A stretch of DNA of 64,000 nucleotides, taken from positions 434,001 through 498,000 of the forward strand of contig NZ_RBIQ01000007.1 of the NCBI RefSeq assembly GCF_003634105.1. Direction: 5' to 3'. This DNA is from Maribacter vaceletii. Lineage in GTDB: Bacteria > Bacteroidota > Bacteroidia > Flavobacteriales > Flavobacteriaceae. The position numbers and the translations under genes are program-made. The notes beneath the pieces were generated by a model. That model searched no databases, was not told the origin of the DNA, and saw only the letters and a program-made list of their open reading frames with translations. Shown in pieces: positions 3,253 to 17,077 of this stretch (its first letter is position 1; each line of letters begins with the position of its first letter).

Positions 3253-4263
3253 TTAATTTCTAACTGATGATTCTCTAATGGTTAGCTCTCCATTTAAAAC
3301 AATGGTTTGAGGTTCCATTAGAGAATTGTTTATTTGTTTAAATAAAAGTTCTGCCGCATTTTTACCCATATCAAAAGTTGGTTGTTTTACGCTACTTAAT
3401 TTTGGAGTTATTAAATCTACCATACGAGTCTCTGTAAAACCCATTACAGCTATATCTTCAGGCACTTTAATACCATTACTTTTTAGTTTTGCAATTGCAC
3501 CCATTGCCACACGATCATTAAAACAAAAAATAGCATCTGGCAAATCATGATTATAAATTAGATCTTCTATAACCTGCATACCTTCTTCTGCTAGTAATCC
3601 TGTTTCTATAACCTTGTAATTTTCTTTAGGTATTTTATGCTTATTCATAGCTCTTTTAAACCCCTCTATTCTATCTATAGAAACATTTAAACTTTTATAC
3701 CCAGCTAGGTAATAAATATTTTTATACCGTTGTCTTATTAGGTGTTCTGCAGCAAAAAAAGCCCATTTTTTATTGTTAAAATATACTTTAGAAGCCTCTA
3801 ATGTTTCTTTAACTCTACTCATAAAAACAATGGGATATCCAGCATTTAATTCTTTTAGATAGTACTCCATATTTCCACTGTCCATGGTGGGAGCAATTAT
3901 TAAACCATCAACCATACTATGAATTAAAGTTTTTACATTTTTTAATTCAATTTCAGGTTTTTCATCAGATTGAGCAATTAGTACCTGATAACCATGTGCC
4001 ATAAACACTTCTTGTATTCCTATTATAATCTCAGAATAATATTCATTTATAAATTCTGGTACAACAACACCAATATTAAAGGTTTTATTTTGACTTAATT
4101 TTTTTGCAATAGGATTAGGAAAATAACCCATTTCCTCTGCCGTTTTTAGTATAAGTTCTTTAGTTTCTTTTTTAATATCATACTTATCATTAAAAGCCCT
4201 AGATACAGATGAGATAGAAACATTTAATCTTTTTGCTACATCTTTTATAGTAACGTGCTTCAT
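3253..4263 (-). CDS. LacI/GalR family transcriptional regulator
   Basis: A 336 aa regulator that would bind operator DNA and respond to a small sugar effector. Residues 1-50 hold the LacI helix-turn-helix (TIKDVAKRLNVSISSVSRAFN) and the hinge helix (PNPIAKKLSQ). The remainder is a periplasmic-binding-protein-like effector domain with the usual FNDRVAMGA and AVMGFTETR segments. It is divergent from susC across a 342 bp region that carries paired GAAAC/CG/GTTTC operators, so it is the likely regulator of the main operon. A similar operator pair precedes the symporter at 13097. A related half-site pair about 30 bases upstream of its own start suggests autoregulation. It has no gap to the convergent sulfatase gene. 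Confidence 0.95.
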   Translation of the reverse strand: MKHVTIKDVAKRLNVSISSVSRAFNDKYDIKKETKELILKTAEEMGYFPNPIAKKLSQNKTFNIGVVVPEFINEYYSEIIIGIQEVFMAHGYQVLIAQSDEKPEIELKNVKTLIHSMVDGLIIAPTMDSGNMEYYLKELNAGYPIVFMSRVKETLEASKVYFNNKKWAFFAAEHLIRQRYKNIYYLAGYKSLNVSIDRIEGFKRAMNKHKIPKENYKVIETGLLAEEGMQVIEDLIYNHDLPDAIFCFNDRVAMGAIAKLKSNGIKVPEDIAVMGFTETRMVDLITPKLSSVKQPTFDMGKNAAELLFKQINNSLMEPQTIVLNGELTIRESSVRN

Positions 4264-4455
4264 AATTAAAGTATTAAGTTTTTAAATAAATTTTCGGAAA
4301 TAAATATACCTTCTTAAAAAAACAATCTTTTCCAATAACAAAAAATCTTTTTCAAATTATATAATAAGCAATAAAATAGCTTTTAAAATTACAATAATAA
4401 ACAATATAATGAACATTAATAAGAATACACTAAATACTAAAAATAGTTTGTTTCC

Positions 4456-4467
4456 GAAACCGTTTCC
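4456..4467. promoter_or_regulatory. Candidate LacI operator 1 upstream of susC
   Basis: The site GAAACCGTTTCC has a central CG at 4461-4462 and near-symmetric arms (GAAAC-C-GTTTC). It matches GGAAACGTTTCC at 10 of 12 positions. Its centre is exactly 31 bp from that of operator 2, about three helical turns. The same spacing recurs in front of the symporter gene. Confidence 0.65.
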
Positions 4468-4486
4468 GAATATTTAAACCGTTTCC

Positions 4487-4498
4487 GGTATCGTTTCC
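4487..4498. promoter_or_regulatory. Candidate LacI operator 2 upstream of susC
   Basis: The site GGTATCGTTTCC is flanked to give CCGG...CCGG at 4485-4500 and has a central CG at 4492-4493. It lies 108 bases upstream of the susC ATG and 31 bp from operator 1. A central CG with flanking A/T arms is typical of LacI-family operators, and the lacI-type gene is adjacent. Confidence 0.65.
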
Positions 4499-4605
4499 GG
4501 TAAAATAAAATCTTCGCTTACACTTTTCTAACATCTTCTAATACTAAATTACCCCAAGAATTAACTTAAAATTAACTTAAATCATTATTAATTAACAGAC
4601 AAATT

Positions 4606-7600
4606 ATGAAAAGAAAACATGTCTATTTAATTTTCTTCTTTTGCTGTAGTGCTATGCTATGGTCTCAAGAGAAAATAGTAAATGGGTCTATTACAGATTC
4701 AGATGGAGTACCACTTCCTGGAGCTAATGTTGTAGAAGTAGGTACAACCAATGGAACCCAATCCGATTTTGATGGTAATTACCAAATTACCGTAAATCAA
4801 GGGGCTTCATTATCCTTTTCTTACATTGGTATGGTTAGTCAAACTATTGTAGTTTCTAATCAAGAGAATCTTAATGTTGCATTACAGGAAGACGCCGCTC
4901 AGTTAGATGAAGTTGTGGTTGTAGGTTACGGCACACAAAAGGTTGTAAATTTAACAGGATCTGTAGAAGTAGTTAAAGCTGCTGAAATCACAAGACAACC
5001 TGTAGCACAGGCTTCTCAAGCATTAGCTGGTTTAGTTCCTGGTTTAACAGCCACACAATCTAGTGGACAACCTGGAGGAGATAATGCAACTTTAAGAATT
5101 AGAGGTGTTGGTACTTTAGGTAATGGAGCTAAGAACAATCCACTAGTTTTAATTGACGGAATCCCAGATGACATCAATGGTTTAGACCCAAGTGACATTG
5201 AGTCTATATCGGTCTTAAAAGACGCTTCTGCTGCGGCAATTTATGGCTCAAGAGCTGCTAATGGTGTTATTCTTGTAACAACAAAAAGAGGTAAGGAAGG
5301 CAGAATATCTACTTCCTATAATACCTATATTGGTGTACAAAGTATTGCTCAAAACCTTCAATTTCTTGATGCTTTGGGGTATATGGAAGCATTTAACTCT
5401 GCACAACCAGGAGCTTTTCCAGAAGAAACATTGCAAGCCTACAGAAATGGAGATGGTGTTGGTACAGAAGCATTACCAAATACAGACTGGGTAGATTTAC
5501 TATTCTCGTCAGCTGCTATTCAACAATACCATAGTATCTCTGTAAGAGGAGGGTCTGAAAAAGCAAAAATGTCTAGTTCTATTTCATATACAGATCAAGA
5601 TGGTAATGTTCCAAACTTTAACTTTAAAAGATATAATGGTCGTTTTAATTTAGATTTTAAATTAAGTGAAAAAATAGATTTAGCTTTTGATTTAAATTTT
5701 AGAAGAGAAGATAGAAAACAACCAGGAGAACTTAATAGTATTACTAGGTCGGCATATAGGTTACAACCCTTATTTGTTGCGATTAACGATGACGGCACAA
5801 ACGGGCAAGGCTTTTCTGGCGGTAACCCAGTTGCATATGCAAATTCTACAGCTTTAGACCAAACTATTACTAACTATTTTAGAGGGCTAGTAAAAGCTAC
5901 GTATAGACCTTTTAATAACTTTTCTATATCTGCAACCTATGCACCACAGTATACAGATCGCGACCAAGATAATTTTCAAACAGGGTTTACGTATTATGAA
6001 TTCTCTGGTGGACCGGCTATTAACAGAAGTTCCCCTAGCTTAGAAAAAGAAACCTTTACATCTTTCCAAGATAATTTTAATGCTATCATGAACTATAGTA
6101 AAGATTTTGGAAATCATAGCGTTTCTGCTTTAGCAGGGTACGAAATATTAAAATTTCAATCCGAAACATGGGGAGCTAGTCGTAAAAATTATGTGTTAGA
6201 CGATTTTAGAGGATTGGATAATGGAGATGCAGATACGCAATTAAACTACGGGTCTTCTACTTTAAATGGTTTAGAATCTTTATTTGGAAGAATAAATTAT
6301 TCCTATAAAGATAAATACCTTTTAGAAGCAAATGTAAGACGTGATGCTTCTTCTCGTTTTGCTCCTGGTTTCCGTTCGGCAACATTCCCTTCTTTTTCTT
6401 TAGGTTGGGTAGCTTCACAAGAAGGTTTTCTACAGGATAGTGAAACTATAAATTTCTTAAAATTTAGAGCTTCATGGGGTCAATTAGGAAATCAATTTGT
6501 TTATGGTACTAATGCAGATGGTGAATCCGTTCTTAACAACTTTGTTTATACTTCATTGTTTGGTTTGGGTAACGCTAACCCTACTATTGGTGGCGTACCA
6601 ATTACTGGAGGCGCACAGGAAACTTTATCAAATCCAGAGTTACGTTGGGAAACTGGTGAAACTCAAAATATTGGTTTCGATGCCAAACTTTTTCAAAGTA
6701 AATTATCATTAACGGGAGAGTATTATGTTCGTAAAACAAAAGATATTTTATTAGATGTTACTATCCCAAGTTCTACAGGCTTATTATCTCCAGCACAAAA
6801 TGCCGGAGAAGTATGGAACACTGGTTACGATTTATCTATAGGTTGGCAAGATATGATTGGCGAAAACTTTAGATATGGATTTAACTTTAATTATTCTGAT
6901 TTTAAAAACGAAATTAAAAACTTAGGTGGTTTAGATCAATTACCTCCAGGAAATAGAATTAATAGAGTTGGAGAAGAAATTGGAGCAATTCATGGTCTAA
7001 AAGTAGAAGGATTATACCAAGAGAGTGATTTTGATTCTAGTGGAGCTTTAAACCCTGACTTACCTACTCCAGGATTTGGAGCAATTCAAGCAGGTGATAT
7101 AAAGTATGCCGATATTTCTGGCCCTGATGGAGTTCCTGATGGAGAAATCACAAATGATGATCGTACAATTATTGGAAGTGATATCGCAAATAAAAATTGG
7201 GGATTAGAACTATTTACAGAATATAAAAACATAGATCTTTCTATATCTTTATTAGGCTCTGGAGGAAGAGATATTGTATTACAAGGTGATGCTGGTTATG
7301 CATTCTTTAATGCTGGTAAAATCCAGGAATGGCAAGCAGATTATTGGACACCAACAAATACTAATGCTGCTTATCCTCGTTTACATCCTGCAAGTTCGCA
7401 TCCAAACTGGAGGACAAATGAAACTTGGATGCATGATGCATCATATGTAAGATTAAGAAATATTACACTAGGTTATAATTTATCTAGAGACTTTTTAGAT
7501 AAAATAAGTCTTTCCAGAGCAAGAATATATTTGTCAGGACAAAATTTAGCTACATGGGATAATATGCCAGAAGGGATAGACCCATTAACCCCTCAATTTT

Positions 7601-7662
7601 CATCTGGTGCATTCTACCCTGTGACTAAGGTGTTTTCATTAGGCCTTAACGTAACTTTTTAG
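4606..7662 (+). CDS. susC-like: SusC-like TonB-dependent outer-membrane transporter
   Basis: A 1018 aa outer-membrane importer for oligosaccharides, energised through TonB. The signal peptide ends near residue 20 (LWSQ). A carboxypeptidase-regulatory-like domain follows at about 24-97 (VNGSITDSDGVPLPGANV), then the TonB-box region DEVVVVGYGTQK near 101, and the plug at about 115-235 with the SusC-typical VLIDGIPDDIN and SVLKDASAAAIYGSRAANG motifs. A 22-stranded barrel should follow, ending in Phe (LGLNVTF) as expected for barrel insertion. The gene is first in a long operon and is followed 19 bases later by its SusD partner. Two operator-like sites upstream suggest control by the adjacent LacI regulator. 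The ligand cannot be read from the sequence. Confidence 0.97.
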   Translation: MKRKHVYLIFFFCCSAMLWSQEKIVNGSITDSDGVPLPGANVVEVGTTNGTQSDFDGNYQITVNQGASLSFSYIGMVSQTIVVSNQENLNVALQEDAAQLDEVVVVGYGTQKVVNLTGSVEVVKAAEITRQPVAQASQALAGLVPGLTATQSSGQPGGDNATLRIRGVGTLGNGAKNNPLVLIDGIPDDINGLDPSDIESISVLKDASAAAIYGSRAANGVILVTTKRGKEGRISTSYNTYIGVQSIAQNLQFLDALGYMEAFNSAQPGAFPEETLQAYRNGDGVGTEALPNTDWVDLLFSSAAIQQYHSISVRGGSEKAKMSSSISYTDQDGNVPNFNFKRYNGRFNLDFKLSEKIDLAFDLNFRREDRKQPGELNSITRSAYRLQPLFVAINDDGTNGQGFSGGNPVAYANSTALDQTITNYFRGLVKATYRPFNNFSISATYAPQYTDRDQDNFQTGFTYYEFSGGPAINRSSPSLEKETFTSFQDNFNAIMNYSKDFGNHSVSALAGYEILKFQSETWGASRKNYVLDDFRGLDNGDADTQLNYGSSTLNGLESLFGRINYSYKDKYLLEANVRRDASSRFAPGFRSATFPSFSLGWVASQEGFLQDSETINFLKFRASWGQLGNQFVYGTNADGESVLNNFVYTSLFGLGNANPTIGGVPITGGAQETLSNPELRWETGETQNIGFDAKLFQSKLSLTGEYYVRKTKDILLDVTIPSSTGLLSPAQNAGEVWNTGYDLSIGWQDMIGENFRYGFNFNYSDFKNEIKNLGGLDQLPPGNRINRVGEEIGAIHGLKVEGLYQESDFDSSGALNPDLPTPGFGAIQAGDIKYADISGPDGVPDGEITNDDRTIIGSDIANKNWGLELFTEYKNIDLSISLLGSGGRDIVLQGDAGYAFFNAGKIQEWQADYWTPTNTNAAYPRLHPASSHPNWRTNETWMHDASYVRLRNITLGYNLSRDFLDKISLSRARIYLSGQNLATWDNMPEGIDPLTPQFSSGAFYPVTKVFSLGLNVTF

Positions 7663-7681
7663 AACCATAATTATAAACAAA

Positions 7682-9481
7682 ATGAAAAAAATAAAATATA
7701 TAATAACAATATGTCTTAGCGCTCTTATTTTAGGAGCCTGTGAAGACACTGTATTAAATCTAGAGGATCCTGGAGCACCAACAGATGCTACTTTTTTTCA
7801 AACACAAGATCATTTAGAGGTTGCACTTGCTGGTACTTATGAAAGTTTAAACTATGTAAGGACAGTACCCTTTCCTCAATTATTAGACCATACTACCGAT
7901 TATGCTTTTAATCGTGGTAATGTAGGAGGCACCGTTGCTACTACTACTGGCGGTTTAACCTCAACAGAAGCAATTGTTAATGCCTTTTGGGATAGATTTT
8001 ATACTGGTGTTCAACGTGCCAACAATCTATTATCTAATATGCATAAAGCTAAAGATGTTACAGACCCAGAAAGGTTTGAACAAATTAAAGCAGAAGCTTT
8101 ATTTTTAAGAGCTATGTTTTATAGTTACTTAACAGAACTTTATGGTGATATCCCTTTTAGAACAGAAATAGTTACTTCTTTAGATGATTTAACAATTCCA
8201 AAAACTTCTAAAACAGAAATTGTAGCAAATATTCTTACTAATTTAGAAGAAGCTGCTAGTATACTTCCTGCGGTACAATCTAGTGGCGAAAGAGGTAGAG
8301 CATCTGCAAATGCAGCAAATGCATTGATTGCTAGAATTGCATTATATAATGGAGACATGTTACTTGCAGAAAGTGCTGCTTTAAAAGTAATGAACTCAGA
8401 AGCAACGCCAACTTTACATACTAACTATGAAGAATTATTTACTGCATCGGGTATTGGCTCTCCCGAAGTAATCCTTGATTTATCATATACTGATGGTACA
8501 AGGGTTCATGAAATATCGCAAAGACAAGGAAGTCGTTTTGGTGGATGGTGCCAATTAGTACCTGCACAACAAATAGTAGATAGTTATGAGACTATTAATG
8601 GATTACCAATAGACGAAGACCCAACCTATGACCCAGAAAACCCATTTAATAATAGAGACCCAAGATTAAAAGCTACAATTGCAATTCCTGGTGAGGTATG
8701 GGCAAATCATGAAATACAACAGCATAGTGATAGTATTGCTGTTTGGAAAGTAGAAAATGGAGTAAATATAGAACGAGTTTTTAACCCAAATGCCGCTAAT
8801 CCAGGAGGAAGAAAAATAATAGACCCATATGATGGCACAGAATATACTACAGGTGGAGCAAATCGTTTTACATCTTTTACAGGCTATTTCTGGAAAAAAT
8901 TCTCAGATGAACCTGCCTTAATCGCCAATGATGGCTCTCAAAGAAGATCAGAACAACCTGTTTATTTATTACGTTATGCAGAAGTTTTATTAACTTATGC
9001 AGAAGCTAAAATTGAAGCCGGAAATATAGATAACTCTGTATTAAATGCAATTAATTTAGTTAGAGAAAGAGCCTACAACAACAGTGGCATTCCTTATCCA
9101 GCAATTACAACAACCGATCAAGAAGAGCTAAGAAAAATTATTAGGAGAGAACGAAAAATAGAATTTGCAGATGAAGGATTACGACTTTTTGATATTAAAA
9201 GATGGCGAATTGCAGAAAAAGTCATGAATACCGAAGTGTTTGGTAGTCCTGCCAATGGGTTTAGCAAAATAGGATCTCTTAACTACATACCTAGTATCGA
9301 TGATGACGGTTTTGTAACTTACCCTGGAGCACCATCACAACCCAGAGTTGAACTTGGAAATTTAGACTATAGAGAATTAGAGGTGAGAGTTTTTGATCCA
9401 AATAAACATTACTTATGGCCTATTCCTCAATCAGAAATAGATGCTAGCGAAGGTATTGTAGAACAAAACCCTGGTTACTAA
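7682..9481 (+). CDS. susD-like: SusD-like (RagB/SusD) surface glycan-binding lipoprotein
   Basis: A 599 aa partner of the SusC channel, expected to form the lid that binds oligosaccharide at the cell surface. The lipoprotein signal ends in LILGAC. The N-terminal SusD helical part (FFQTQDHLEVALAGTYESL) and TPR-like helices (EQIKAEALFLRAMFYSYLTELYGDIPF) are clear. So is the C-terminal signature (YLLRYAEVLLTYAEAKIEAG, then IIRRERKIEFADEGLRLFDIKRW and HYLWPIPQSEID). The length is normal for the family. An intrinsic terminator-like hairpin lies about 40 bases after the stop, so downstream genes may be expressed at a lower level than susCD. Confidence 0.97.
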   Translation: MKKIKYIITICLSALILGACEDTVLNLEDPGAPTDATFFQTQDHLEVALAGTYESLNYVRTVPFPQLLDHTTDYAFNRGNVGGTVATTTGGLTSTEAIVNAFWDRFYTGVQRANNLLSNMHKAKDVTDPERFEQIKAEALFLRAMFYSYLTELYGDIPFRTEIVTSLDDLTIPKTSKTEIVANILTNLEEAASILPAVQSSGERGRASANAANALIARIALYNGDMLLAESAALKVMNSEATPTLHTNYEELFTASGIGSPEVILDLSYTDGTRVHEISQRQGSRFGGWCQLVPAQQIVDSYETINGLPIDEDPTYDPENPFNNRDPRLKATIAIPGEVWANHEIQQHSDSIAVWKVENGVNIERVFNPNAANPGGRKIIDPYDGTEYTTGGANRFTSFTGYFWKKFSDEPALIANDGSQRRSEQPVYLLRYAEVLLTYAEAKIEAGNIDNSVLNAINLVRERAYNNSGIPYPAITTTDQEELRKIIRRERKIEFADEGLRLFDIKRWRIAEKVMNTEVFGSPANGFSKIGSLNYIPSIDDDGFVTYPGAPSQPRVELGNLDYRELEVRVFDPNKHYLWPIPQSEIDASEGIVEQNPGY

Positions 9482-9520
9482 AAAAATTGAGTTTATAAGT
9501 TCGAGTTAGTTTTTTAGTTT

Positions 9521-9547
9521 AAAAGGGAGCTGAATAGCTCCCTTTTT
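9521..9547 (+). terminator. Intrinsic terminator/attenuator after susD
   Basis: An 11 bp perfect stem (9521-9531 with 9536-9546; core AGGGAGCT/AGCTCCCT) with a GAAT loop is followed by T-rich sequence. It sits between susD and the next gene of the operon, whose ATG is only 16 bases past it. It therefore probably acts as a partial terminator that favours high susCD expression, or as a transcript-stabilising hairpin. Confidence 0.8.
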
Positions 9548-9562
9548 CTAATTTTTAATACA

Positions 9563-12500
9563 ATGATAAACTATCAAAAAACAACATATTTAGTATTTGT
9601 TATTATCACCTTGTTATTTTCATGTTCTAAACCTGAAAATAACAAAACAATAAACTCCAAACTATTTGAAATAGTCCCAGACTCCATTAGCAACATAACT
9701 TTTTCTAACAATCCAAAAGAAAATGCTTTTATGAGTGCTTTAAATTATGATTACATGTACAATGGCGCAGGTGTATCTGTAGGAGATGTAAATGGCGACT
9801 CTTTACCAGATATTTTCTTTGTATCTAACCAAAATAAAAACGAATTATATTTAAACAATGGTGCATTAGAATTTAAAAATGTTTCTAAAATTGCAGGTAT
9901 TACAGGAGTATCTGGCTTTAAAACCGGAAGTACTTTTATAGATATAAATAATGACGGTTTACTAGATATTTACATATGTAAATCTGGGTTATACAAAGAT
10001 TCCGAAAAAAGAAAAAATGAGCTCTATATAAATCAAGGAAATAACCAAAACGGAATCCCCACTTTTATAGAAGAAGCCCATAAATACAAATTAGATTTAG
10101 AACATTATTCTACTCAAGCATCTTTTTTCGACTATGACAAAGATGGAGATTTAGATATGTTTTTAATCAATCATAATGTCGATTCTAATGTACACTACAA
10201 TTTTAATCACTATAAAAAAATAAAATCCGACCTCACTAGCGATAGATTATACCAAAACAATAATAATATTTTTAAAGATATCTCCAAAGAAGCTGGTTTA
10301 TTAAATGATGGCATCGGATATGGATTAGGAATTGCCATAGGTGACTTAAATAATGATACATGGCCAGACGTAATAGTAAGTCAAGATTTCACATCTAAAG
10401 ACCGCATGTACCTCAATCAGAAAAATGGCACTTTTAAAGAAATTATTAGCACCGCTACAGGACACATTTCTAACTTTTCCATGGGTAATGATATTGCCGA
10501 TTTTAATAATGACGGCTGGTTGGATTTCGTTTCTCTTGATATGGTTTCTGAAGACAACTATGGCATAAAAGCTAGTATGAGTGGCATGAACCCGGAACGA
10601 TTTAATTCCTTAATAGATCAAGGGTTTCACCATCAATATATGTATAATACCCTTCAAATAAATAACGGCATTTCTACGAAGAAGAAAATTCCTGTCTTTT
10701 CAGATGTTGCTGCCATGGCAGGCGTTGCGAGTACGGATTGGAGTTGGGGTCCTCTCTTTTTTGATATGGATAATGATGGTGACAAAGACCTATTTGTATC
10801 CAACGGAATAAAAAGAGACTTTAGAAATGTAGATTATATACATTACAGAGAACGTAAAGAGATTGAATTTGAAGAGAAAATAAAAAAAATATCCAAAAAA
10901 CTACGCCCCCTTTTTCAAGAACAGCATGATGCCGACATTATAAAAAACATGCCGCCAAGAAAAAAAGATAATTACTTCTATGAAAACCTTGGAGATGCGC
11001 AATTCCTCAAAAAGAATGGAGACTGGACAGTAGAAAAATTAACTGCAACCAATGGCGCTTCTTATGCCGACTTAGATAATGATGGTGATTTAGACTTAAT
11101 CACTAATAATATGAATGATAAAGCTTTTATTTACAAAAATAATAGCAGAGAATTAGGACTTGGAAGCTATTTAAAAATAAAATTAAAAGGTTCCTCTAAA
11201 AACATAAATGGTATTGGTGTAAGAGTTAGTATTATTACAACTCAAGGAACTCAAATTCTAGAGCAATATGCTTCAAGAGGGTTTCAATCTTCCAAAGATT
11301 ATTCACTACATTTTGGAGTAGGGAAAGAAACAATTATTGATACTCTAAAAATTAATTGGCCTAATGGTAAATCACAGTTATTAACAAATACTAAAAGCAA
11401 CCAAACTATAATATTAAATTATAAAGATGCTATAAATAGTATTGAAACAAAATCAACAAAAAAAACTAAATTTCAAGACATTACAAGCCAAATAAATCTT
11501 AATCATTACATTCCGCAAAACACTTTTGACGATTTTAAACGCGAAAGTCTATTACCTCATAAAATGTCTGAAGAAAGTATTGCCTTAGCTGTTGGCGATA
11601 TTAATAACGATGGTTTAGATGATTTTTTTGTAGGTGGAGCTTTAGGTTTCCCTGGAGCATTATATACACAAAATGAAAAAGGCAGATTTAAAATAGTAAA
11701 AACCAATCTTTTTATAAATGATAAAGAATATGAAGATGTTAATGCTACTTTTTCAGACTTAGATAAAGATGGCGATTTAGACTTGTACGTTGTTAGTGGT
11801 GGTAATGAACATAAAGTAGGGTCTAAATATTACAGTGATCGTATTTATTTTAACCAAAATGGTGTTTTTCATAAAACAAACATCCCATTTAACACTACAT
11901 TTTGTCATAGCGGAAGCATTGTAAAACCTTACGATTTTGATAGTGATGGCGATTTAGACCTTTTTGTTGGTAGCAGGCAAACACCTAATAAATACCCGTT
12001 TCCAGGAAGTAGTTTTCTTTTAAAAAATGAATCAAAAAAAGACCAAATAAAATTCTCTCTAATTACAAATAAAGAGCTTAACCAAATTGGAATGGTCACC
12101 GATGCTAATTGGGTTAATATAGATTCTGATGAGAAAAAAGAACTAGTAATTGTTGGAGAATGGATGCCCATAACCATATTTAAACAAGTAGATGGAAAAT
12201 TTATTAATTATACAGAAAAAACTGGTTTAGCAAAGAGTTCTGGTTGGTGGAACACAATAAAATCTCTTGATATTGACAAAGATGGCGACATGGATTTTAT
12301 TGCAGGTAATTTGGGACTAAATTCTAAATACAAAGCATCTACAGAAGCTCCTTTTGAAATATTCAGTAATGATTTTGATGATTCTGGCTCTTTAGACATT
12401 GTCTTAAGTTATCATCAAAATGGAGAGAAATTTCCTTTAAGAGGAAGACAGTGCAGTTCGCAACAAATGCCTTTCATTCAAAAAAAATTCCCAAACTATC

Positions 12501-12955
12501 ATACGTATGCTTCCGCCAGATTAGAAGAAGTGTATCCGCCAGAAAAAATGAAAGAAGCCTTGACATATAAGGCAAATACTTTTGCAACAAGCTACATAGA
12601 AAATAATGGGAATGGGACTTTTAATATCAAAAAAATGCCCCTTGGAGCCCAACAAAGTAGTGTAAAAAGTATATGTGCATTAGCAAATAAAAAAAATGAA
12701 ACTACAGATTTTCTTTTATTTGGAAACACTTACGGTTTTGAAGTAGAAACTCCAAGACAAGATGCTAGTTTTGGCACCTATTTACAAAAAGACAAAAACA
12801 ATTTTTATAAAGTAATAGAACCATCTAAAACTGGATTATACATTTCTGGTGAGATTACTAATGCAAAAAATATTTCATTAACAAATAATGAAAAAGGAAT
12901 ATTGATTGTAAAAAACAACGACAACCTACAATTAATTAAAGTAAATAATAGGTGA
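9563..12955 (+). CDS. FG-GAP/VCBS repeat lipoprotein with ASPIC/UnbV domain
   Basis: A large 1130 aa lipoprotein (signal ends LLFSC) of the CRTAC1-like type. Many FG-GAP/VCBS blades are visible through calcium-loop motifs such as DVNGDSLPD, DINNDGLLD, DYDKDGDLD, DLNNDTWPD, DMDNDGDKD, DLDNDGDLD and DINNDGLDD. These imply one or two beta-propellers that bind calcium. An ASPIC/UnbV domain lies near residues 533-620 (GVRVSIITTQGTQ, INWPNGKSQ). Its place directly after susCD suggests a surface glycan-binding or complex-stabilising role, though this is inference. Proteins of this type recur beside SusC/D pairs in marine Bacteroidota and their function is not settled. No catalytic motif was recognised. 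Confidence 0.88.
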   Translation: MINYQKTTYLVFVIITLLFSCSKPENNKTINSKLFEIVPDSISNITFSNNPKENAFMSALNYDYMYNGAGVSVGDVNGDSLPDIFFVSNQNKNELYLNNGALEFKNVSKIAGITGVSGFKTGSTFIDINNDGLLDIYICKSGLYKDSEKRKNELYINQGNNQNGIPTFIEEAHKYKLDLEHYSTQASFFDYDKDGDLDMFLINHNVDSNVHYNFNHYKKIKSDLTSDRLYQNNNNIFKDISKEAGLLNDGIGYGLGIAIGDLNNDTWPDVIVSQDFTSKDRMYLNQKNGTFKEIISTATGHISNFSMGNDIADFNNDGWLDFVSLDMVSEDNYGIKASMSGMNPERFNSLIDQGFHHQYMYNTLQINNGISTKKKIPVFSDVAAMAGVASTDWSWGPLFFDMDNDGDKDLFVSNGIKRDFRNVDYIHYRERKEIEFEEKIKKISKKLRPLFQEQHDADIIKNMPPRKKDNYFYENLGDAQFLKKNGDWTVEKLTATNGASYADLDNDGDLDLITNNMNDKAFIYKNNSRELGLGSYLKIKLKGSSKNINGIGVRVSIITTQGTQILEQYASRGFQSSKDYSLHFGVGKETIIDTLKINWPNGKSQLLTNTKSNQTIILNYKDAINSIETKSTKKTKFQDITSQINLNHYIPQNTFDDFKRESLLPHKMSEESIALAVGDINNDGLDDFFVGGALGFPGALYTQNEKGRFKIVKTNLFINDKEYEDVNATFSDLDKDGDLDLYVVSGGNEHKVGSKYYSDRIYFNQNGVFHKTNIPFNTTFCHSGSIVKPYDFDSDGDLDLFVGSRQTPNKYPFPGSSFLLKNESKKDQIKFSLITNKELNQIGMVTDANWVNIDSDEKKELVIVGEWMPITIFKQVDGKFINYTEKTGLAKSSGWWNTIKSLDIDKDGDMDFIAGNLGLNSKYKASTEAPFEIFSNDFDDSGSLDIVLSYHQNGEKFPLRGRQCSSQQMPFIQKKFPNYHTYASARLEEVYPPEKMKEALTYKANTFATSYIENNGNGTFNIKKMPLGAQQSSVKSICALANKKNETTDFLLFGNTYGFEVETPRQDASFGTYLQKDKNNFYKVIEPSKTGLYISGEITNAKNISLTNNEKGILIVKNNDNLQLIKVNNR

Positions 12956-13096
12956 TTTTAATTGTTTTATCGAATGTTCGGAAACGTTTTCGAAAATTAA
13001 CCCCCCTTTCGGAAAGGTTTTCGGAAATAAAATTTTTGAATTAATTAAAAACTAAAAAAAATAACACTTTATTGTAACTACAAACCACTCAAAACT
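12956..13096 (+). promoter_or_regulatory. Control region of the symporter gene with paired operators
   Basis: A 141 bp gap holding two operator-like sites, GGAAACGTTTTC at 12980-12991 and GGAAAGGTTTTC at 13011-13022. They are identical at 11 of 12 positions and their centres are 31 bp apart. The first is part of a near-perfect 18 bp palindrome at 12977-12994 with one mismatched pair. TTTTCGGAAATAAA at 13018-13031 repeats exactly at 4291-4304 near lacI. An internal, LacI-controlled promoter for the symporter and downstream genes is the likely meaning. No clear -7 box was identified. Confidence 0.7.
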
Positions 13097-14749
13097 ATGA
13101 CTAAAATTGATATTGGAGTAATTATAATTTTCACCTTACTAGTTTTTGTATGCGGAATGAGTTTCTCTAAATCTGGCAAAAACATGAAATCTTTTTTTGC
13201 TGCCGGTGGTGCACTTCCTTGGTGGATGAGTGGATTATCTTTATTCATGAGTTTCTTTTCTGCTGGTACTTTTGTGGTATGGGGTTCTATTGCATACAAA
13301 AGTGGTATGGTTGCTATTGCTATTCAATGGACCATGTGTATTGCAGGTATAATTATTGCCTTTTGGATTGCACCAAAATGGCAAAAAACCAAAGCCCTAA
13401 CCACTGCCGAATTTATAACCGATAGATTAGGTAAAAGCACCCAAAAAATTTACACCTATCTATTTCTTGTAATTTCAATTTTTAGCACCGGCGCCTTTCT
13501 ATATCCAGTTGCTAAAATTGTAGAAGTATCAACAGGGATTCCAATATACACAAGTATCATCTTTTTAGGAATTCTTATCCTAATTTACACCGCAGTTGGT
13601 GGCTTATGGGCTGTAATTGTTACCGATGTTTTGCAATTTGTTGTATTAACAGCTGCTGTATTAATTGTGGTTCCATTATCTTTTGATAAAATAGGAGGCT
13701 TAGATAATTTTATAACTAAAGCGCCAGAACATTTTTTCGATTTTGTAAATACAGAGTACTCCCCTTTATTTATGATTGCTTTTGGATTGTATAATCTATT
13801 CTTTATTGCTGGTAATTGGGCATACGTACAACGCTATACAAGTGTAGCAACACCTAAAGACGCAAAAAAAGTAGGACTTCTTTTTGGTGGCCTTTATACT
13901 ATTAGTCCATTAATATGGATGCTACCTCCAATGATTTACAGAATATTAAATCCAGAATTAGGGAATCTTGCCGAAGAAGGGGCTTATTTATTAATGTGTA
14001 AAGAAGTATTACCTGTTGGAATGTTAGGTTTAATGCTCGGAGGAATGGTTTTTGCCACTTCTAGCTCTGTAAATACTACATTAAATATTTCTGCTGGAGT
14101 TTTAGCAAATGACATATATAAACATTTAAAGCCTAAAGCCAGTAATGACCAACTAGTAAAAGTGGGTCGTATAGCTACTATAATTTTAGGGGTATTAACT
14201 ATAGGAATTGCATTACTAGTTCCCTTTTTAGGAGGAATTGTGGAAGTAGTAATGAGTTTAGCTGCATTAACAGGTGGTGCTATGTTCTTACCTCCATTAT
14301 GGGCATTATTTTCTAAAAGACAAACTGGAAAAACAGTGCTATTAGTTACCATAATATCTTTAGTAATTAATGCTTTCTTTAAATTTTTAAGTCCAACTAT
14401 ATTAAACATCACTTTAGATAGAGCTCAAGAAATGGGACTAGGAGCTGCAGTTCCTATTCTCTCTTTAGCAATTATAGAGTTTTATTTATACAATAAAAAA
14501 ACAAGTACAGTACAACATGACAACCATGCAAAACTTGTAATTACAAAATTAGAAGAAGCGCAAGAGGAAGAAGAGTCTAACGAAGGAAATAAAAAAGGAA
14601 CAAAAGTAATTGGGATTGGGGTTGCTGCAACAGGATTACTAATATTATTACTTTCTTTTATAGCAGAAAACGGAGCGTTATTAGTAGGCGGAATGGGCGT
14701 TTTGGTTCTTTTCCTTGGAATCTTCATCATTAAAAAATCGAGAATATAA
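13097..14749 (+). CDS. Sodium/solute symporter (SSS family)
   Basis: A 550 aa inner-membrane protein with about 13-14 hydrophobic helices, typical of SSS-family sodium-coupled sugar carriers. The family signature is visible at the N-terminus (FFAAGGALPWWMSGLSLFMSFFSAGTF) and in the helix GNWAYVQRYTSVATPKDAKK. An acidic, lysine-rich cytoplasmic loop (EEAQEEEESNEGNKKG) precedes the last two helices. The gene has its own upstream operator pair matching that of susC, so it probably belongs to the same LacI regulon. It would import the monosaccharide or anhydro-sugar released in the periplasm. The sugar itself cannot be deduced. Confidence 0.94.
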   Translation: MTKIDIGVIIIFTLLVFVCGMSFSKSGKNMKSFFAAGGALPWWMSGLSLFMSFFSAGTFVVWGSIAYKSGMVAIAIQWTMCIAGIIIAFWIAPKWQKTKALTTAEFITDRLGKSTQKIYTYLFLVISIFSTGAFLYPVAKIVEVSTGIPIYTSIIFLGILILIYTAVGGLWAVIVTDVLQFVVLTAAVLIVVPLSFDKIGGLDNFITKAPEHFFDFVNTEYSPLFMIAFGLYNLFFIAGNWAYVQRYTSVATPKDAKKVGLLFGGLYTISPLIWMLPPMIYRILNPELGNLAEEGAYLLMCKEVLPVGMLGLMLGGMVFATSSSVNTTLNISAGVLANDIYKHLKPKASNDQLVKVGRIATIILGVLTIGIALLVPFLGGIVEVVMSLAALTGGAMFLPPLWALFSKRQTGKTVLLVTIISLVINAFFKFLSPTILNITLDRAQEMGLGAAVPILSLAIIEFYLYNKKTSTVQHDNHAKLVITKLEEAQEEEESNEGNKKGTKVIGIGVAATGLLILLLSFIAENGALLVGGMGVLVLFLGIFIIKKSRI

Positions 14750-14797: not shown

Positions 14798-17077
14798 ATG
14801 TTAATACAAAATTTCCAAGAAAAGATACGCGATAACAAAACCATTATTACAAATACTGATTTTGTAATTGTTGGTGGAGGAACAGCTGGTGTATGTGCTG
14901 CTATTACAGCAGCTAGAAAAGGAACAAAAACAGTACTTATTCAAGACAGACCAGTATTGGGTGGTAATGCCTCCTCAGAAGTTCGTTTATGGATTTTAGG
15001 AGCTACCTCTCACATGGGAAACAATAACCGTTGGGCTCGTGAAGGTGGAGTTATGGATGAGATACTTGTAGAAAACATGTATCGTAATAAAGAAGGAAAT
15101 GCTGTTATTTTTGATACTATCCTTCTTGAAAAAGTAATGCTAGAAAAAAACATTACGCTCTTGCTAAATACTAGTGTTTATGATATAACAAAAACGAGTG
15201 ATACAAAAATAGAATCAGTTAAAGCTTTTTGTTCTCAGAATTCTACCGAATATAAAATAAAAGCCCCTATTTTTTGTGATGCCTCTGGAGATGGAATTGT
15301 TGCTTTTAAAGCTGGTGCTTCTTTTAGAATGGGTGCTGAAACCAGAGAAGAGTTTGGAGAATTATTTGCTCCAGACAAAGCATACGGAGAGCTTTTAGGG
15401 CACTCTATGTACTTTTACAGTAAAAGAGAAAATACTCCTGTAAAATATACTCCTCCTGCTTTTGCTTTAAAAGACATTACAGAAATTCCAAGGTATAAAG
15501 CGATTGATAAGGATGATAAAGGATGTCGCTTTTGGTGGTTTGAATATGGAGGAAGAGGCGATACTATTTATGACACCGAAGAAATAAAACAGGAACTATG
15601 GAAAGTAATTTATGGTGTTTGGGATTATATTAAAAACTCCGGGGAATTTGATGATGTAGAAAACCATACTTTAGAATGGGTGGGTACAATTCCTGGAAAG
15701 AGAGAAAGTCGTCGTTTTGAAGGTTTGTATATGATGAAACAGCAAGATGTTTTGAATCAGTGCCAATTTGATGATGCAATTGCACACGGAGGTTGGGCCA
15801 TAGATTTACACCCTGCAGATGGCATATACAGTGAACTTTCAGGTTGCACACAATGGCATTCTAAAGGTATTTATCAAATCCCATATCGTTCTTTTGTAAG
15901 TAAAGACATTGATAACCTTCTACTAGCCGGTAGAATCATTAGTGCTACGCATGTAGCTTTTGGTTCTACAAGAGTAATGGCTACTACTGGTTTATGCGGC
16001 CAAGCTGTTGGTATGGCTGCTGCCGTTTGTAATGAAAAAAACATTTTGCCAGCACAAATTCTTGAAGAGAATAGAATTAACTATTTGCAAAACGAATTAA
16101 ATAAAATTGGTCAGAGTATTCCAAATATTCCTATAGAGAAAACAAGTAATCTACTTAATAAAGCAACTATAAGTTCCTCTTCAGAATTACAATTATCAAA
16201 AATTCCGTTTAATGGAGAATGGATGCCTCTTAGCACTGCTTCTGCGCAACTCTTACCTTTATCTGCGAATAAAAAATATACTTTTAAAGTTAACGTAAAA
16301 GCCGAAGAAAATACAGCAATTACCGCACAATTGCGTACTTCTGAAAAAACAAATAACTATACCCCTGAAGTAATTTTAGAAACTCAAGAAATTACATTAT
16401 CTGAAGGAGAGCAATACATTACTATTTCTTTTGATGTTGTACTTCCTAAGGAACAATATGCTTTTATAACCTTTTTAGTTAACGATAAGGTTAGTATACT
16501 AACCAGCGAAGAAAGATATTCTGGTGTCTTATCTGTATTTAATGGTGTTAACAAAGCAGTTTCTAATAACGGAAAACAAACCCCACCAGACGGAATTGGA
16601 GTAGATACTTTTGAATTCTGGATTCCTCATCGTAGACCAGAAGGAAAAAACATAGCAATGGAAATTATTCCTGCATTATCCTCTTTTAATATAACAAACC
16701 TTGGTAATGGATATGTTAGACCAGGAATAGGAGCCAATGCATGGGTTGCTGACATTAATGATTCTAAACCTAGTATAAAAGTGGAATGGGACACAGAACA
16801 AACCATTTCAGAGATTAAACTATTTTTAGATACCGATTATGACCATCCAATGGAATCTACTTTGTACGGACATCCAGAATCTGTTATTCCTTTTTGTATT
16901 CAAAAGTATATAATCAAAGATTTAGACGGTACTGTTTTGGCTTCTACAGAAGATAACCATCAAACTATAAACACCATTAAATTTAAAGATAGTATTACCA
17001 CTAAAGGTTTTACAATAGAAGTAGCGCATCCTTCTAAGGAAGTTCCTGCAGCCATTTTTGAAATATTATGTAGTTAA
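14798..17077 (+). CDS. Cytosolic FAD-dependent oxidoreductase with C-terminal beta-sandwich region
   Basis: A 759 aa flavoprotein resembling the FAD_oxidored (PF12831-type) family. The dinucleotide-binding fold starts at residue 21 (DFVIVGGGTAGVCAA, GGGTAG at 26-31) and continues with VLGGNASSEVRLWI. A second FAD-contact region lies near residues 365-410 (LLLAGRIISATHVAFGSTRVMATTGLCGQAVG). Residues from about 430 to the end form one or two beta-rich domains, the last resembling a discoidin-like sandwich. There is no signal peptide and no plausible upstream start, so it should be cytosolic, unlike nearly all neighbours. It follows the symporter by 48 bases, which suggests oxidation of the imported sugar, but that is inference. 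The substrate is unknown. Confidence 0.85.
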   Translation: MLIQNFQEKIRDNKTIITNTDFVIVGGGTAGVCAAITAARKGTKTVLIQDRPVLGGNASSEVRLWILGATSHMGNNNRWAREGGVMDEILVENMYRNKEGNAVIFDTILLEKVMLEKNITLLLNTSVYDITKTSDTKIESVKAFCSQNSTEYKIKAPIFCDASGDGIVAFKAGASFRMGAETREEFGELFAPDKAYGELLGHSMYFYSKRENTPVKYTPPAFALKDITEIPRYKAIDKDDKGCRFWWFEYGGRGDTIYDTEEIKQELWKVIYGVWDYIKNSGEFDDVENHTLEWVGTIPGKRESRRFEGLYMMKQQDVLNQCQFDDAIAHGGWAIDLHPADGIYSELSGCTQWHSKGIYQIPYRSFVSKDIDNLLLAGRIISATHVAFGSTRVMATTGLCGQAVGMAAAVCNEKNILPAQILEENRINYLQNELNKIGQSIPNIPIEKTSNLLNKATISSSSELQLSKIPFNGEWMPLSTASAQLLPLSANKKYTFKVNVKAEENTAITAQLRTSEKTNNYTPEVILETQEITLSEGEQYITISFDVVLPKEQYAFITFLVNDKVSILTSEERYSGVLSVFNGVNKAVSNNGKQTPPDGIGVDTFEFWIPHRRPEGKNIAMEIIPALSSFNITNLGNGYVRPGIGANAWVADINDSKPSIKVEWDTEQTISEIKLFLDTDYDHPMESTLYGHPESVIPFCIQKYIIKDLDGTVLASTEDNHQTINTIKFKDSITTKGFTIEVAHPSKEVPAAIFEILCS

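Follow-up and report, generated by a model that had tools for sequence, protein, structure and literature searches.

Tandem sites for regulators of the LacI family have been described at 1,118 operons, with intersite distances peaking at 13, 22, and 32 base pairs (bp); the 22- and 32-bp peaks were read as cooperative dimers, sites about 13 bp apart overlap, and groups of three sites occur (Ravcheev et al. 2014, PMC4052901). Among individual members of the family, FruR/Cra is a repressor as well as an activator, activates some promoters, and serves as a global regulator of central metabolism (PMC4052901), and in Bacteroides the LacI-family proteins KdgR, UxaR, UxmR, and UxuR regulate sugar pathways, specifically as predicted regulators of uronate use (PMC3878776). 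The system described here comes from the same phylum as the latter four and, in contrast to FruR/Cra, is local, serving one polysaccharide locus. It lies in a stretch of 64,000 nucleotides of Maribacter vaceletii DNA (contig NZ_RBIQ01000007.1, positions 434,001 to 498,000; hereafter the window), in which two 45-bp composite operators face the lead genes of two operons, susC and a symporter gene, and in which a LacI-family gene is divergent from susC. We propose, with a probability of roughly 0.6, that these units are operators of the divergent LacI, where two cooperative dimers would contact RNA polymerase and most likely activate transcription.

Composite operator A (4455–4499, forward strand) points towards susC and consists of a distal site 1, CGAAACCGTTTCCG (4455–4468), a middle element, CGTTTC (4480–4485, forward strand), and a promoter-proximal site 2, CGGTATCGTTTCCG (4486–4499), an architecture shared by orthologous loci. 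Composite operator B (12979–13023, forward strand) points towards the symporter gene and has the same parts, namely site 1, CGGAAACGTTTTCG (12979–12992), a degenerate middle element in which CC replaces CG (13004–13009, forward strand), and site 2, CGGAAAGGTTTTCG (13010–13023); the sites themselves have no strand. An earlier, sequence-only reading of the window had marked four 12-mers here and described them as two pairs of CG-centred sites with identical 31-bp spacing. The coordinates are correct, the four match GGAAACGTTTCC at 10, 10, 11, and 10 of 12 positions, and the spacing is true of both pairs, which confirms that the observation was real. A CG centre is found in three of the sites, the fourth having GG (13016–13017), and the two sites noted at 4456–4498 are both present as parts of a group of three to four elements. 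In operator A these elements, CG(TTTCC), stand at 4461, 4480, and 4492, preceded by a TG variant at 4449, and the resulting 12-19-12 bp series of CGGAAA-like elements is present in both operators. As in LacI/GalR operators, the sites are even palindromes with a central CG; both centres are CG in most composites, with B site 2 among the exceptions.

Taken singly, 12-mers matching at least 9 of 12 positions are at chance level in the window (24 against 22.0 ± 4.8 expected from shuffles), and the single 12-mer scan was dropped as evidence; the sites are significant because the paired 45-bp unit, rather than any one 12-mer, exceeds chance. A leave-own-out weight matrix, built from 24 composites of other genomes with the window's own two and a close relative (L001) excluded, gave composite A 60.7 bits and composite B 48.9 bits, against 4.4 bits at the best non-overlapping position of the window and 5.2 in the best of five shuffles. 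Over the whole 3.89-Mb genome, the only full-length matches to a model (R1) whose training included the window's own two composites were A (46.4 bits) and B (40.9 bits); among the remaining matches, A read backwards reached 21 bits and the next best, a partial match, 15.2 bits. The regulon is locus-specific, and the genome's six other LacI genes showed no such pair within 450 bp upstream.

Conservation was assessed in the loci of 42 LacI relatives with 91–50% identity to the 3253–4263 protein, mostly from Flavobacteriaceae but also from Prolixibacteraceae, Cyclobacteriaceae, and other Bacteroidota. Of these 42 loci, 37 pair lacI divergently with either susC (about 1,010 codons; 13 loci) or a symporter gene (about 548 codons; 24 loci), the same genes that lead the window's two target operons; the exceptions are L007, L025, L026, L032, and L039. 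In these loci and the first 21 kb of the window, CGGAAACGTTTCCG-like 14-mers (at least 11 of 14 positions) formed 63 close pairs, 39 of them at 31 bp, 4 at 30, 9 at 12, 8 at 19, and 1 each at 18, 37, and 49, and ten Markov shuffles of the same sequences yielded no site pairs. A relaxed threshold gave 46 pairs at 30/31 bp, every one within 400 bp of a gene start, including one (L028) inside an open reading frame whose start is likely over-long. Loss of the sites or their spacing in orthologous loci, which had been named as one outcome that would overturn the idea, did not occur; two sites set whole helical turns apart and conserved among orthologues, as in tandem operators, are found both for these 31/30-bp pairs and for the 21/20-bp pairs of a sister subfamily considered below. 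A Cellulophaga locus (L007) carries four 31-bp composites in 13 kb; for one of them, at 9778, the 400 bp on the aligned side showed no long gene. A model search of 247 genomes of the phylum returned, besides the genome under study, weak matches in 4 genomes. An open-spacing scan with GGAAACGNTT pairs (299 family genomes, 20 with a match) mixed chance with real matches and was too loose to count.

The composite holds more than a pair of palindromes. Oriented so that the target gene follows, 27 non-redundant composites share the order CGGAAACGTTTYCG, an A/T-rich spacer, CGTTTY, and CGGWAACGTTTYCG, and in the non-redundant set the information content collapses outside the 45-bp unit, where the flanks have weak A/T preferences only. 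The CGTTTY element is fixed in orientation and stands 12 bp ahead of the promoter-proximal site. Of 28 aligned composites, 21 carry its CG (composite positions 26–27), and none of the 28 does so when read in reverse; among composites outside that set the CG occurs in 10 of 11 with 31-bp spacing versus 0 of 8 with 30-bp spacing (Fisher 1.2e-4). Because the 31-bp and 30-bp forms are both present in each of two genomes (G002 and G180), the middle element is linked with the promoter and not just with lineage. It does not behave as a plain LacI half-site, an identity that was rejected since in L168, a locus of the same genus, it stays CGGTTTC while the palindromes have become GGGAAC; it would be a conserved overlapping half-site that accompanies the 31-bp form.

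A second addition to the two-site picture of the sequence-only reading is a fixed promoter distance; together with the oriented third element, it makes a repressor that simply blocks the promoter less likely. The sigma-A -7 box of Flavobacterium psychrophilum, TAnnTTTG, occupies -12 to -5 (PMC9723704). Downstream of the composites this motif is enriched at a single offset, 58/59 bp, counted from the first base of the proximal site, with a mean score of 4.39 of 6 (28 non-redundant of 41 composites) against a maximum of 3.5 in 500 shift permutations. Eleven of the 18 composites outside model training score at least 5 towards the target, compared with 0 of 18 in the opposite direction; for loci without an adjacent lacI in this test the target side was assigned from a long reading frame, and L012 was excluded from all counts. 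Overall, 29 of 49 composites score at least 5 at 58/59, the median over offsets being 1, in a count that omits near-duplicates such as L005, L013, L026, L030, L033–L036, and L041; the L168 locus has a perfect box, TACATTTG, at offset 58. By simple arithmetic from this offset and the F. psychrophilum box position, the two sites are centred at about -63.5 and -94.5. The target promoters are also poor at -33, with TTG 17–23 bp upstream of the -7 box in 4 of 29, versus 13 of 28 control boxes, perfect TAnnTTTG matches at other positions of those loci (p = 0.0096). A site upstream of the core promoter in fixed helical phase, as in LacI-family activators such as Cra or GalR at P2, is thus found in the relatives and weakly in the window, where the candidate susC -7 box, TAAATTAC (4545–4552, forward strand), lies at offset 59 from the start of site 2 and scores a weak 4 of 6. 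As the window's own -7 boxes are poor, its promoter positions are taken from the relatives.

These features suggest a scheme in which each of the two CG-centred palindromes, spaced by 31 bp, takes up one LacI dimer on the same face of the helix, the dimers probably aiding each other's binding, and in which one unit controls the susC-susD-(FG-GAP/UnbV) operon and the other the long symporter operon within a single polysaccharide locus. In the relatives the pair sits wholly upstream of a core promoter that usually lacks the -33 TTG, at constant helical phase, and from there LacI would most likely touch RNA polymerase and activate transcription in its sugar-bound (or sugar-free) state. With the core promoter unobstructed and weak at -33, activation is the likelier sign. 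For lacI itself the expectation differs with the type of locus. In symporter-divergent loci the distal site would often overlap the lacI -33 region, and self-repression is to be expected: of 15 symporter-side loci examined, 7 have a perfect lacI -7 box whose distance from the outer edge of site 1 is 6–10 bp, so that the distal site should cover the -33 region there. In the nine susC-type loci examined, lacI is 93–313 bp away, and a fixed lacI-side promoter distance was rejected as a general rule, having been seen in only part of the symporter-type loci. The sequence-only reading had placed a half-site pair by the start of lacI in the window; one half-site is found, CGGAAA (4295–4300, no strand), 32–37 bp before the lacI start, patchily conserved and of uncertain role. 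Counting the window, 6 of 14 susC-type loci have a half-site (CGGAAA or TTTCCG) within 120 bp upstream of lacI, although three of these six are close relatives; the background averages 0.09 per 120 bp. Weak autoregulation would thus be possible in loci of this type.

The same operators and the same LacI could also serve a classical repressor that inhibits RNA polymerase by contact from upstream and is released by sugar, an explanation we consider unlikely although well short of negligible. It has a precedent in GalR, which from -60.5 represses gal P1 through RNA polymerase contact (PMC4693257), and it conforms to common usage, as 'repress' appears 29 times and 'activator' 3 times in the portions covered of the LacI-family survey (PMC4052901); the lacI -7 boxes close to site 1 in symporter-side loci fit autorepression as well. 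On the target side, however, the shortage of -33 TTG relative to controls and the placement of the pair fully upstream in both LacI classes, with offsets one turn apart, argue against repression.

The build of the protein bears on how the two sites would be joined. The regulator (3253–4263, reverse strand; 336 amino acids) carries an N-terminal LacI helix-turn-helix domain (Pfam LacI PF00356, 4.7e-13) and a periplasmic-binding-protein-like domain (Peripla_BP_3, 8.3e-32; PF13377, PF00532), the combination that defines the LacI/GalR family. CcpA and PurR are among the nearest solved structures, and CcpA, the nearest, aligns over residues 3–332 of 336, whereas the alignment with Escherichia coli LacI stops at residue 309. 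The tetramer helix of LacI lies beyond about residue 340; the 336-residue protein has no room for it and lacks the C-terminal tetramerisation segment of the E. coli repressor. A single tetramer making a 31-bp loop is, moreover, physically implausible. A LacI tetramer that bridges the two sites of a unit, or that loops A to B over 8.5 kb, consequently seems very improbable, in spite of the two composites held by one locus and the known loops of GalR (PMC4693257). The sequence-only reading had allowed for either two dimers or one tetramer acting from one DNA face. That interpretation holds in part: conservation of the units, their joint occurrence with the LacI orthologue, and the L168 locus, where a natural variant of specificity retains the 31-bp spacing, give good support to a LacI regulon of cooperating dimers, whereas the tetramer is not supported, the C-terminus ending as in CcpA.

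The 12-19-12 bp series of CGGAAA-like elements in both operators might also be taken as direct repeats bound by another regulator, with the nearby LacI incidental, an idea to which we attach scarcely any weight. The sites are CG-centred palindromes like most LacI-family motifs (PMC4052901), and strong composites were detected only in genomes carrying this LacI. An orthologue (E ≤ 1e-95) was found in 19 of 397 Flavobacteriaceae genomes, and composites of at least 30 bits occurred in 15 of the 19 genomes with it versus 0 of 378 without it (Fisher 6.9e-24; strict filters), a contrast to be read with the caution that the model was trained on loci adjoining this LacI and that some training species are within the 397 genomes. 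In L168 half-site and recognition helix change together: its LacI is 64% identical and has a changed helix (NISTSS versus NVSISS), and its operator comprises two perfect CGGGAACGTTCCCG sites 31 bp apart with the middle CG retained, so that the letters of the operator have changed and its architecture has not. The survey of further LacI loci behind this comparison covered 24 of 30 loci taken from 94 PF00356 matches. L016, with Lys at the same helix position, likewise has CGGGAAC half-sites, and so has L032, with Val, a misfit whose operator lies 4 kb from lacI. The covariation of the recognition residue with operator position 4, which L168 and L016 fit and L032 does not, is only suggestive. Another LacI-type gene, L142, has three TGTGCTCGAACACA-like palindromes upstream, 22–23 bp apart. 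Chance matches, or ancestral conservation without function, would agree with single 9-of-12 matches being no commoner than expected, but this explanation has next to no probability and is already contradicted by the collapse of information outside the unit save for weak A/T and by scores far above those of the shuffles.

Several observations weigh against activation by cooperating LacI dimers at a fixed helical phase. A good -7 box at 58/59 is missing from 20 of the 49 composites, and the window's promoters fit the rule poorly, A scoring 4 of 6 at 59 and B 3 of 6 at 58/59. The -33 comparison is unmatched, as target boxes score 5 or 6 of 6 and control boxes 6 of 6. Four relative loci (L020, L021, L022, and L038) have one site only, and the -7-like box of L021 and L022 stands at offset 51, not 58, as does one of the tied boxes in L038. 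Four of the 19 orthologue genomes have no match of at least 30 bits, G213 and G260 having weaker ones and G180 and G609 none at 1e-4; G180 nonetheless has a 30-bp pair and a relaxed 31-bp pair. The strict filters reduced the window's own operator A, at 46.4 bits in the genome search, to a 27-bit piece, and the absences in genomes are accordingly not airtight. Finally, the counts are not fully independent, for orthologous promoters share ancestry. The four loci with a single CGGAAACGTTTCCG-like site belong to Ulvibacterium, Flagellimonas, a Flavobacteriaceae, and Carboxylicivirga.

A related arrangement emerged from seven genomes without the LacI orthologue, whose composite matches were weaker and partial (24–28 bits). 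Their source was CGAAAACGTTTTCG-like pairs, mostly beside a LacI of 31–35% identity. A search of 219 genomes with spacing left open from 13 to 41 bp found a pair in 18, at 21 bp in 11, 20 bp in 6, and 27 bp in 1, and the reversed control pattern gave zero matches in the same search. In the loci of this sister subfamily (L091, L126, L128, L130–L132, L134, L171–L184, and L186–L188) the pairs lie mostly between lacI and the divergent gene, of which 420–475 codons are visible in 3-kb loci and which encodes a SusC-like receptor in the one tested (L091). Thirteen of 20 non-redundant targets have the -7 box at offset 48/49 and none of the 20 has it at 58/59, a result above all 500 permutations, with the redundant L130, L131, and L134 removed and L173 without a target in range; TTG at -33 is present in 3 of 13. 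Relative to the 31-bp class, then, the sister pair is one helical turn tighter and its -7 box exactly 10 bp, or one turn, nearer. It is tempting to see in the two classes a distinct Bacteroidota group of LacI-type activators of polysaccharide loci, in which dimer pairs two or three turns apart hold the proximal dimer in constant phase to RNA polymerase and an oriented third half-site makes the 31-bp enhancer directional, a generalization that we put forward tentatively.

The genes downstream of the two operators fit a polysaccharide locus. Beyond operator A follow, on the forward strand, a SusC-like TonB-dependent receptor (4606–7662; Plug, CarbopepD_reg_2), a SusD-like lipoprotein (7682–9481; SusD_RagB), and an FG-GAP/UnbV_ASPIC protein of 1130 amino acids assigned from domain matches (9563–12955), a protein that also adjoins SusD in 6 of the 42 relative loci (L001, L008, L013, L015, L017, and L041) with 59–81% identity. 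The first gene past operator B encodes an SSS-family symporter (13097–14749, forward strand; SSF, TIGR00813 above cut-off) and is followed by an FAD-dependent oxidoreductase gene (14798–17077, forward strand; PF12831), two genes kept together in 27 of the 42 relative loci. Co-oriented genes for GH97, GH2, GH43-like, GH127, GH29, GH28, and GFO_IDH_MocA proteins and for many sulfatases then extend over 17093–63070 (forward strand), and the run from the symporter through the oxidoreductase, GH genes, and sulfatases is a candidate second operon. This gene content suggests, as the probable substrate, an algal polysaccharide that is branched and sulfated.

Repression is the role usually assigned to LacI proteins, and the annotation of marine polysaccharide loci follows that habit. 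Should the proteins considered here prove to be activators bound at a set helical position, many Bacteroidota loci would reveal the sign of their regulation from sequence, and the natural spacing series (31, 30, 21, and 20 bp, with the -7 box at offset 58 or 48) offers a direct test of dependence on helix phase. The literature also contains, as a side match, an AraC-type XylR homologue with a LacI-like ligand domain, and one candidate comparison (PMC9976891) was set aside, E. coli LacI serving only as a tool in the part of that paper covered. Closest to the present composites are the tandem operators of Ravcheev and co-workers, which share even CG-centred palindromes, the peak spacings, overlapping sites, and groups of three; their distances are one above ours at each peak, perhaps through counting convention, the Bacteroides phylum is sampled there through one taxonomic group, and the portions of the survey covered describe no oriented composite or fixed promoter distance (PMC4052901). 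In mechanism the nearest parallel is E. coli GalR at gal OE (-60.5), where a dimer upstream of the core promoter contacts the C-terminal domain of the alpha subunit of RNA polymerase and activates or inhibits; GalR differs in using one upstream site with a looping partner at +53.5, whereas here two sites stand 31 bp apart and no downstream partner was seen (PMC4693257). The 31-bp spacing in itself is of an already published kind (PMC4052901). What is new, as far as a literature search with bioRxiv and most subscription papers outside its scope can indicate, which is not proof of absence, is a Bacteroidota composite with an oriented middle element, a fixed promoter phase, and a one-turn relation between two LacI classes.

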